From Endomicrobium sp. (GTDB lineage Bacteria; Elusimicrobiota; Endomicrobiia; Endomicrobiales; Endomicrobiaceae): a stretch of DNA of 62,318 nucleotides. The translations under genes and the position numbers were made by a program. The notes beneath the pieces were generated by a model. The model was not told where the DNA came from. It saw only the letters and a list, made by a program, of their open reading frames with translations, and did no database searches. Positions 32,317 through 35,669 of this stretch are shown here, one piece after another. Each line of letters starts with the position of its first letter. Position 1 is the stretch's first letter. The stretch covers positions 1 through 62,318 of the forward strand of contig JAITOB010000005.1 in the NCBI GenBank assembly GCA_031290155.1, given 5' to 3'.

Positions 32317-33483
32317 ATGCTAATAAGAAAAGTAAATATCAATGATTTTAATGATGCTTTAAAACTTGTAAAGAATACTGGATGTTACGATACTGTTCAA
32401 AAGTTTATTGCCAAAAAAGGTATTTTCAGCCCTATAATTATAGAAAATATAGACAATAGGGCGGCAAATATTTTAAAACAGGAAGCTATTTCTGTAGGAG
32501 CAAATACGGCGGTAAACGAAAATGTTAGTAAGTTTAAAAAAGGCAGTTCTGATACAATTTTATTCGCCACTTTAGCTCAAATTGAGAAATTAACCAACAA
32601 ACTTTATTTACAGCCGTTTGGCTTAAAAGAAATTGCTTTAAAATTTAAAGATATTCTAACTAGGGAAAAAGTCTTTAAATGCAGAGGAAAATTTATTGAT
32701 ATATCGACTCCGGTTGTTATGGGTATTGTGAATATGGATCCAGGTTCTTTTTCCGGAGACGGACTTAGAGATGCTGATAAAGCGCTGGAACAAGCGGTTG
32801 AATTTGAAAAACTTGGCGCCGGAATAATAGATATAGGCGCAGAATCTTCAAGACCCGGAGTAAAATTTGTAGATGCAAGAACAGAAATAAGCAGATTACT
32901 TCCTGCTCTAAAAAAAATAAGAAAAAATATCAAGATTCCAATTTCTGTAGACACTTATAAATATGAAACAGCAAAAATAGCTCTTTATGAAGGCGCAGAT
33001 ATTGTTAATGATATTTTTGCTTTAAGAAGGGGTAAAGAGAAATTAGCAAAGCTTATTGCGGATACAAAAGCAGGTTTAATACTTATGCATATGAAAGGAA
33101 TACCTAAAAATATGCAGATAAATCCTGAATATAAAAACTGTACGTCAGAGATATATGAATTCCTTGCCGAACGAAAAGAATATGCTGAAAGTTTTGGCAT
33201 AGAAGAGCAGAATATTGCGGTTGATCCTGGTCCCGGTTTTGGAAAAACCGTACAACACAATGTTGAATTAATAAAAAATATTAATATTTTTTCAACGCTA
33301 GGCGCAGTTGTAGGCGCTGTATCAAGAAAAAAATTTGTGAGAACTCTTGCAGGTGAAGATAAATCAGCTTTTATTGTTGCAAATTTTCTTACAGCATTTT
33401 GTGGAGCTGACATTCTAAGAGTACATGATGTAAAAGAAACGGTAAACGTTTTAAAAATAATTGAGATTTTTCGGAGAGTGTAA
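32317..33483 (+). CDS. folP: Dihydropteroate synthase with N-terminal extension
   Basis: Condenses pterin pyrophosphate with p-aminobenzoate in folate synthesis. 388 aa, about 110-120 longer than classic FolP (about 280): residues 1-125 form an extra N-terminal region of uncertain function, then the TIM barrel. Pterin-site motifs are visible: VMGIVNMDPGSFSGDG (classically NVTPDSFSDGG), DIGAESSRPG, SVDTYK, IVNDIFALR, LMHMKG and DPGPGFGKT. The NVTPDSFS loop, the site of sulfonamide contacts, is NMDPGSFS here, a notable change. Long DHPS versions are known in some archaea and deep-branching bacteria. Confidence 0.9.
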   Translation: MLIRKVNINDFNDALKLVKNTGCYDTVQKFIAKKGIFSPIIIENIDNRAANILKQEAISVGANTAVNENVSKFKKGSSDTILFATLAQIEKLTNKLYLQPFGLKEIALKFKDILTREKVFKCRGKFIDISTPVVMGIVNMDPGSFSGDGLRDADKALEQAVEFEKLGAGIIDIGAESSRPGVKFVDARTEISRLLPALKKIRKNIKIPISVDTYKYETAKIALYEGADIVNDIFALRRGKEKLAKLIADTKAGLILMHMKGIPKNMQINPEYKNCTSEIYEFLAERKEYAESFGIEEQNIAVDPGPGFGKTVQHNVELIKNINIFSTLGAVVGAVSRKKFVRTLAGEDKSAFIVANFLTAFCGADILRVHDVKETVNVLKIIEIFRRV

Positions 33484-33484
33484 A

Positions 33485-34252
33485 TTGGGAACTTTGTTAA
33501 ATATTTACAATAAATACCTAATCAACGTTCTTGATATCTTTATACTTGCAGCAATATTTTACAGAGTTATTCTTATTATAAAGGGAACAAGAGCAATACA
33601 AATTATGGTTGGCATATTATTTATTTTAAGTTTTACATTACTTGTAAAAAATGTTTTACATCTTAGGGCGTTGTCATGGCTTTTAGAAAAGTTTTGGCTT
33701 GCTGCATTTATTATCTTTGCCATTATATTTCAAATTGAAATACGAAACGTTCTTGCTCAACTTGGCGGCCGGATTTGGGGGTTGAAAGCAAAAGTAAAAG
33801 ACTCTTATATAACGGAAATTATTGATGCAGTTAAAGATATTAGCGCCTCTATGGCAGGCGGGCTCATAGCCATTGAAAATGAAATAGGTTTAAAGAATTT
33901 TACTGAAACAGGGATATCTTTGAATGCAAATATTTCAAAAGAATTATTGCTTTCAATTTTTAAGAATAAATCTGCGCCGCTGCACGATGGAGCGGTGATA
34001 ATATTTAATGATAAAATTTCAGCTGCAGGGTGTTTGCTTCCTTTAAGTCATGATACCGATGTAAAAATATTTGGCACAAGACACAGAGCGGCTCTTGGTT
34101 TAAGTGAAGCGACTGATGCGGTTATAATTGTTGTTTCAGAAGAAACAGGACAGATATCTGTTGCTTATAAAGGCAGATTATATGAGAATATACCGTACGG
34201 ACAACTTAAAGAAATAATTAATACAAACGGCGAGGCTTTAAACTCAAAATGA
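33485..34252 (+). CDS. cdaA: Diadenylate cyclase, CdaA type (c-di-AMP synthase)
   Basis: Makes the second messenger c-di-AMP from two ATP. Three N-terminal membrane helices (to about residue 90) anchor the DAC domain. The DAC signature has KSAPLHDGAVII (DGA motif) and GTRHRAALGLSEATDA (RHR motif), then VVSEETGQISVA. Start chosen at TTG 33485: GGAGAG at 33473-33478 is spaced six bases, while upstream ATG 33461 lies inside folP and adds eight odd residues. The next frames are a tiny CdaR-like remnant and glmM, the conserved cdaA-cdaR-glmM order that ties c-di-AMP to cell-wall precursor synthesis. Confidence 0.93.
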   Translation: MGTLLNIYNKYLINVLDIFILAAIFYRVILIIKGTRAIQIMVGILFILSFTLLVKNVLHLRALSWLLEKFWLAAFIIFAIIFQIEIRNVLAQLGGRIWGLKAKVKDSYITEIIDAVKDISASMAGGLIAIENEIGLKNFTETGISLNANISKELLLSIFKNKSAPLHDGAVIIFNDKISAAGCLLPLSHDTDVKIFGTRHRAALGLSEATDAVIIVVSEETGQISVAYKGRLYENIPYGQLKEIINTNGEALNSK

Positions 34253-34329
34253 AAAAGAACTGGCAGTTTAAACTAATTGCTTTAGCACTCGCTCTTTTTG
34301 TCTGGCTGTATGCGGTAAATATAAAATGA
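34249..34329 (+). CDS. 26-residue YbbR/CdaR-like micro-ORF (N-terminal anchor only)
   Basis: In the place where cdaR (ybbR) sits in many bacteria there is only ATG-26 codons-TGA. The peptide starts MKKNWQFKLIALALALF and continues WLYAVNIK, a single membrane helix matching the N-terminal anchor of YbbR-domain proteins, normally followed by several 80-residue YbbR repeats. Both junctions remain perfect: ATGA with the cdaA stop (34249-34252) and ATGA with the glmM start (34326-34329). Either a clean in-frame deletion left a translation-coupling stub, or the membrane peptide itself still acts on CdaA. Family assignment rests on position and the short anchor; a database search would be needed for certainty. 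Confidence 0.6.
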   Translation: MKKNWQFKLIALALALFVWLYAVNIK

Positions 34330-35669
34330 AACTATTTGGAACTGACGGAATAAGAGGAGATTCGTCAAGATTTCCGTTTGACAATGCGACTCTTGAGATT
34401 ATTGGCAAATCAATAGCTGAAACTTTAAAAACTGAAAAAAATATTCTTATTATTCGCGATACGAGAGGATCTGGAATAAGAATACAAAAAGAATTGGCAA
34501 AAGGAATTTTAAATGCCGGGTTGACACCTGTTTTTGGCGGTGTTATGCCTACATCTGCTGCTTCTTTCATCATGCAACGCGGTAAATATTCTGCCGCCAT
34601 AGTAATATCAGCCAGCCATAATCCGTATATGGATAATGGGATAAAAATTTTCAATTCAAGGGGATTTAAGCTTAAAGACAATGTAGAGTTAAAAATTGAA
34701 AAGAAGATAAAAAAATATCTTAACTTAAATGCAACTGTGCTAAATAAAGATATAAAAATAAAAGAATATCCGCAATTTTTAAAATTTTATGAACGATTCA
34801 TTGTAGAAAAATTTACAGGGATTTCTCTTAAAGGTAAAACAATAGTTATAGACTGCGCTAACGGTTCTTCTTATAAATGCGCTCCTTATGTTTTAAAAAA
34901 GCTTGGAGCTAAAATTATTGTGCTAAACAACAAGCCGGATGGTAAAAATATAAATTTAAATTGCGGCGCGTTACATCCTGAGTATGCCGCAAAAATAGTA
35001 AAGGAACGCAAAGCATTCTGCGGTTTTGCTTTTGACGGTGATGCCGACAGGTTAATATGTATTGATGAAAATGGCGTTATTAAAGACGGCGATTATTTTC
35101 TTGCTTCAATGGCTGTCTGGCTGAAAAACAAAAAGAAACTTAAAAATGATACTTTAGTTACAACGGTTATGGCTAATATGGGACTTTTAGAGACGATGAA
35201 AAAGGAACATATAAAAACAGTGTCTGCAAAAGTAGGTGATAGATATGTTATTGAGAATATGAAAAGATATAAAGCATCATTTGGCGGGGAACAGTCCGGA
35301 CATTTTATCTTTAAGGATATTTTGACTACAGGCGACGGACTTTTAAGTTCAATTATGCTTCTTGCGGCGTTAAACGATAGAAATAAAACTATGTCGGAAT
35401 TTATGAATATAATTGAAAAATTCCCACAAGTACTTGTAAATAAAAAAGTTAAAGAAAAAGTTCCTATTAAAAAACTTTTAAATTCTTATAAGCTTATTAA
35501 AGATCATGGGAAAGTACTTGGCGTAAACGGACGTATACTTGTAAGGTATTCAGGTACAGAAAACTTTGTTAGAATTATGGTTGAAGGCAAAGATATTAAA
35601 ACAATCGAAACAATATCCGAGAATGTATTAACTAGTATTGAAAATGAAATTGCAAGTTATAATAAATAA
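34326..35669 (+). CDS. glmM: Phosphoglucosamine mutase
   Basis: Interconverts glucosamine-6-P and glucosamine-1-P for peptidoglycan and LPS precursors. 447 aa. N-terminal KLFGTDGIRGDSSRFPF, phosphoserine loop VISASHNPYMDNGIK (about residue 98), metal-binding FAFDGDADR (about residue 237), sugar-binding GGEQSGHFIF and phosphate-binding RYSGTENFVRIMVEG. Overlaps the CdaR-like stub by ATGA. With glmS two genes on, both early steps of UDP-GlcNAc synthesis lie together. In Gram-positives GlmM also binds and inhibits CdaA. Confidence 0.97.
   Translation: MKLFGTDGIRGDSSRFPFDNATLEIIGKSIAETLKTEKNILIIRDTRGSGIRIQKELAKGILNAGLTPVFGGVMPTSAASFIMQRGKYSAAIVISASHNPYMDNGIKIFNSRGFKLKDNVELKIEKKIKKYLNLNATVLNKDIKIKEYPQFLKFYERFIVEKFTGISLKGKTIVIDCANGSSYKCAPYVLKKLGAKIIVLNNKPDGKNINLNCGALHPEYAAKIVKERKAFCGFAFDGDADRLICIDENGVIKDGDYFLASMAVWLKNKKKLKNDTLVTTVMANMGLLETMKKEHIKTVSAKVGDRYVIENMKRYKASFGGEQSGHFIFKDILTTGDGLLSSIMLLAALNDRNKTMSEFMNIIEKFPQVLVNKKVKEKVPIKKLLNSYKLIKDHGKVLGVNGRILVRYSGTENFVRIMVEGKDIKTIETISENVLTSIENEIASYNK

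Follow-up and report, generated by a model that had tools for sequence, protein, structure and literature searches.

In Endomicrobium sp., the product of the 26-codon reading frame between cdaA and glmM is probably a CdaR anchor that stands alone and serves the diadenylate cyclase CdaA as a small membrane subunit, which would support the assembly, orientation or activity of the enzyme; we put the probability of this reading at about 0.7. The window analysed is a stretch of 62,318 nucleotides (contig JAITOB010000005.1), and all positions given below refer to it.

A short reading frame at the cdaR position

The frame lies at positions 34249–34329 of the forward strand, running from ATG to TGA over 26 codons. 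Its product, MKKNWQFKLIALALALFVWLYAVNIK, which we call mini-CdaR on the basis of its sequence, the selection acting on it and its homology to the CdaR anchor, is a single-helix membrane peptide of 26 residues with the N-terminal basic head and single transmembrane anchor typical of CdaR. To judge from sequence, the gene on its 5' side (33485–34252, forward strand) encodes the membrane diadenylate cyclase CdaA, with a three-helix CdaA_N region and a DAC domain; the Pfam matches were obtained with the CdaA of a relative (L016; PF02457 DAC at 3e-38, PF19293 CdaA_N at 5e-6). The start codon of cdaA at 33485–33487 is apparently TTG, with no ATG near the aligned N-terminus. Further upstream is a folP-like gene (32317–33483, forward strand), assigned from its sequence and from genomes without cdaA. 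The gene on the 3' side (34326–35669, forward strand) is GlmM-like, a phosphoglucosamine mutase, and mini-CdaR occupies the place of CdaR in the cdaA-cdaR-glmM operon.

Both ends of the frame overlap a neighbor through ATGA, at 34249–34252 with the cdaA stop and at 34326–34329 with the glmM start (both forward strand), as the first-pass annotation had described and as the sequence confirms. The perfect coupling to cdaA and glmM that it also claimed holds in the window and is common elsewhere, but is not universal, since gaps and overlaps differ among relatives and one genome (G047, see below) has its cdaA on another contig.

Conservation and selection within Endomicrobium

We detected cdaA in 31 of the 42 genomes of the genus, with a small frame of 26–36 residues directly 3' of it (consensus approximately MKKLxxKIKKNWQLKLLALxLAxFVWLYAxYM) at junctions that are mostly tight or overlapping. 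At 26 residues, versus about 32 elsewhere in the genus, the window copy is the shortest, and it differs from the copy at locus L005 by an in-frame shortening of 21 nucleotides in the basic head. In the copy at L007 a conserved Trp is replaced by Arg and the end is altered. The frame is nevertheless open in all 28 genus copies that accompany a non-degenerate cdaA.

Over the 22 ungapped codons of these 28 copies the pooled pN/pS is 0.27 in the true frame, compared with 0.71 and 1.63 in the other two forward frames, where 26 and 17 of the 28 rows are interrupted by stops, and with 0.83 ± 0.18 (minimum 0.45) in a column-shuffle null (n = 300). Third codon positions are the most variable and second positions the least, and the median dN/dS over 232 genus pairs, a calculation that had been proposed with the original annotation, is 0.19. 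Because the frame stays open in every non-degenerate copy and its pN/pS falls below that of the other frames and the shuffles, the frame is present beyond chance. The peptide is under purifying selection, which bears out the earlier suggestion of selection, and the comparison of junctions in relatives likewise turned up neither a missing frame nor a random spacer as the general condition.

Relation to the CdaR anchor

We trained a hidden Markov model on Elusimicrobiota peptides only and searched 5,980 reading frames from 80 cdaA loci of many phyla with it. Genes immediately 3' of cdaA ranked first, and all matches with E < 0.5 were either such genes or CdaA fusions. In full-length CdaR the matching segment was the N-terminal anchor, with E-values down to 8e-10, and the full-length genes tested from among these matches carry the YbbR domain PF07949. 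Since a profile from Elusimicrobiota alone finds the N-terminal anchor of the YbbR/CdaR proteins encoded after cdaA, the peptide is a CdaR anchor without YbbR domains, and the likeness to YbbR-protein anchors first noticed by eye is supported by profile matches.

The conserved core spans codons 3–20 (34255–34308, forward strand) and presents K8, A11, A15 and W19 on one helix face. This pattern, K-x2-[AS]-x3-A-x3-W, is common to the peptides and to full CdaR anchors. The two middle places are occupied by small residues in 85/85 Elusimicrobiota peptides, 53/54 Omnitrophota peptides and 53/53 anchors of full CdaR. Between the sets, column information correlates with r = 0.73–0.77 (0.77 for peptides versus full CdaR anchors). 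For the helical moment of conservation, p is <0.001 in full CdaR, 0.002 in the Elusimicrobiota set and 0.06 in the Omnitrophota set. The likeness is somewhat inflated, since the sets, including the 53 full anchors, were picked by a profile of the same family.

PF07949 was searched for in the peptide and is absent, and for this reason we do not class mini-CdaR as a YbbR-domain protein. The same model has no match in the window's genome (1.11 Mb, 85% complete), and against Pfam and NCBIfam the peptide gave weak chance matches only, none above a curated cut-off. Among 290 Elusimicrobiota genomes PF07949 is present in four, and no free CdaR was found by this search. In three of the four (G044, G274 and G116) the frame with the YbbR match also reads as a diadenylate cyclase, the second of the genome, with cyclase and YbbR domain fused in single proteins (L177, L178 and L179, respectively). 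For G044 a single protein matched both Pfam families, and this genome has the peptide behind its main cdaA as well. The fourth genome has a 903-residue frame of a different kind.

Mini-CdaR and CdaR/YbbR thus share the gene place after cdaA, a homologous N-terminal anchor and the same helix face, but the peptide lacks the YbbR domain and has 24–50 residues where CdaR has roughly 200–500. KdpF, CydX and AcrZ are small single-pass subunits of membrane enzymes; each is likewise a single short helix that acts on a larger membrane protein or is encoded next to it. They are unrelated to mini-CdaR in sequence, and the partner and effect that we propose for mini-CdaR are putative.

Distribution and natural fusions

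The reduction is not private to the window's genome. At 93 Elusimicrobiota junctions the peptide lies within 350 nt of cdaA in 82, is fused to CdaA in three and is absent from eight. Its length in the phylum ranges from 24 to 50 residues, and in some members it is kept with other downstream genes (glgP-like, pdxJ-like). A whole-genome profile search of seven Elusimicrobiota genomes without an adjacent copy found no peptide in six, and in those genomes CdaA can do without it. Family f8, one of the families of the class, is an example, with no peptide in the four genomes searched whole; here gyrB-like genes directly follow cdaA (L070, L072, L073, L077 and L078). In the remaining genome, G047, the peptide is encoded directly before glmM and after an unrelated gene (L263, G047:C34), with cdaA on another contig. 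The gene for the peptide therefore need not adjoin cdaA, and this arrangement also allows for GlmM as a partner.

In genome G041 (L016) the frame continues from cdaA, giving a CdaA of 287–293 residues whose C-terminal tail is the peptide. This fusion could rest on a single indel, and the internal ATG is retained. The fusions at L046 and L051 (genomes G113 and G134) have a common longer linker, and a further CdaA-anchor fusion occurs in one Omnitrophota genome (L156). In all four the anchor alone is joined to CdaA; they resemble the DAC-YbbR proteins of G044, G274 and G116 in the covalent joining of a cyclase to parts of its partner, whereas the YbbR domain is kept in the latter. An AlphaFold model of the L016 fusion has a mean pLDDT of 84.7, with about 58–78 in the peptide part, and predicts a basic helix at 257–270 and a transmembrane helix at 272–292. 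A PDB fold search with this model recovered only the cytoplasmic domain of CdaA.

The anchor-only state is spread through Elusimicrobiota and common to Omnitrophota. We sampled Omnitrophota non-randomly, reading 30 close junctions and 40 picked by hand; most are anchor-only (about 27–59 residues), about a dozen have a full CdaR of roughly 310–334 residues and a few are intermediates of 140–154 residues. That these lengths occur side by side suggests that a full CdaR was shortened. At least seven changes between anchor-only and longer CdaR are required on a tree of 237 CdaA proteins, six counting only Omnitrophota rows, but this single-protein FastTree has many poorly supported forks and drew long-branch warnings, and is too weak to count truncations. 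A contig titled 'Clostridia bacterium' (L100) encodes an anchor-only peptide of 31 residues after a CdaA 46% identical to that of the window, and possibly belongs to a misnamed genome bin.

Loss with cdaA and not with glmM

Profile A2 of the peptide matches the same 31 of 42 genus genomes in which cdaA was detected, in each case beside cdaA, and gave no convincing match away from cdaA in the 42; the genomes are related, and these counts are not independent events. The losses within the genus cleanly separate the two neighbors, the peptide tracking cdaA and not glmM. In three genomes with a degenerate cdaA and no detected glmM the peptide is broken, by a stop in place of the conserved Trp (G003), by a frameshift (G004) or by loss of the conserved Trp residues and the end (G009). 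In two others (G012 and G032, 85% and 60% complete) cdaA and the peptide are intact and glmM was not detected; the stretches 3' of the peptide hold other cluster genes and no glmM. Conversely, in G013, G022, G025 and G034 glmM is kept, cdaA is gone and no trace of the peptide is left, the folP-like gene abutting glmM. These four lineages appear to be without this c-di-AMP cyclase; at their loci (L254–L259) cdaA and the peptide have been cleanly lost between the folP-like gene and glmM.

Proposed role and alternative explanations

We infer that mini-CdaR is made from the same operon as cdaA through the start/stop overlap, that CdaA is its partner, and that it would insert with the basic head in the cytoplasm and the short tail outside. 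The conserved face (Lys, small, small, Trp) may pack on the three-helix membrane bundle of CdaA, and the packed peptide would support assembly, orientation or activity of the cyclase. Two-hybrid experiments placed the binding of CdaR/YbbR on the membrane region of CdaA (PMC6368335), and therefore the anchor alone is expected to keep this contact. A supportive subunit is favored because separate lineages have joined the anchor to the C-terminus of CdaA. Such a fusion fits the predicted topology, in which the end of the cyclase is cytoplasmic, the basic stretch stays inside and the helix crosses outward. The extracytoplasmic YbbR domains, presumably sensing in other bacteria, would have been lost, and the envelope input that CdaR would give may be missing or come from elsewhere.

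An opposite effect, in which the bound anchor would silence CdaA or tether inhibitory GlmM to it, appears unlikely. GlmM inhibits CdaA/DacA and an S. aureus ybbR transposon mutant had raised c-di-AMP (PMC11520302, PMC8573169), and the peptide adjoins glmM in G047. However, permanent fusion to CdaA would be hard to understand for an inhibitor, the peptide is retained in G012 and G032 with no glmM detected, and YbbR supports synthesis in Chlamydia (PMC12422730). Against a supportive role, in turn, no clear effect of full YbbR on DacA was found in S. aureus (PMC6368335), and CdaR is described as activating or repressing according to the conditions (PMC8573169). The frame might instead serve only to carry ribosomes from cdaA to glmM, its sequence being a mere translatable spacer or membrane-targeting leader, and the ATGA overlaps in the window and the tight or overlapping junctions of most of the genus would suit such an element. 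Yet selection acts on the amino-acid sequence, the peptide stands before glgP- or pdxJ-like genes in some genomes, and it has been fused to CdaA. An exact deletion leaving a coupling stub, one of the two origins offered in the first-pass annotation, is rejected because the peptide persists without glmM downstream and vanishes with cdaA though glmM stays, and the anchor-only state is phylum-wide and extends to Omnitrophota. The coupling explanation is thus largely refuted and we give it only a slight chance.

Two further possibilities are highly improbable. Decay of a CdaR relic under relaxed constraint would agree with the window copy being the shortest of the genus and with the altered copy at L007, but the peptide is present throughout the phylum with low pN/pS, and the truly dead cdaA loci of the same genus carry broken peptides, so that decay is visible once constraint is gone. 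Conservation in two phyla refutes this relic. The position of a short frame between two genes would also suit a regulatory leader peptide or attenuator that works through RNA or the ribosome; against this, the conserved residues form one membrane-helix face common to full-length CdaR, protein fusions exist, and G047 looks like natural trans-complementation from another locus. The lone helix as a minimal regulator of CdaA, the other origin offered at first, is the most likely reading given its loss with cdaA and its natural fusions to CdaA, and appears well supported by evolution. What began as a curiosity of one genome has broadened to a conserved protein of two phyla, and a minimal CdaA regulator is, we consider, likely to be the right explanation of it.

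Implications for CdaR function

Searches of the open-access literature found no description of mini-CdaR or of c-di-AMP in these phyla, and the mode of CdaR control over CdaA is stated to be unclear (PMC8573169). We think it somewhat probable that CdaA of Elusimicrobiota and of much of Omnitrophota works with a dedicated single-helix subunit of 24–60 residues, all that remains of CdaR. The subunit would be a conserved gene of fewer than 50 codons with no match above the cut-off in Pfam or NCBIfam. Its conserved face offers four residues to change, and a ligand of only 26 residues would lend itself to studies of full-length CdaA with synthetic peptides, NMR or cryo-EM. If this is true, it is the membrane helix that CdaR cannot do without, and the YbbR sensor is an optional part that has been discarded repeatedly. 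Whole lineages that retain the anchor only, some of which weld it to the cyclase, amount to a natural deletion experiment, and would narrow the mechanism of CdaR to helix-helix contact in the membrane.
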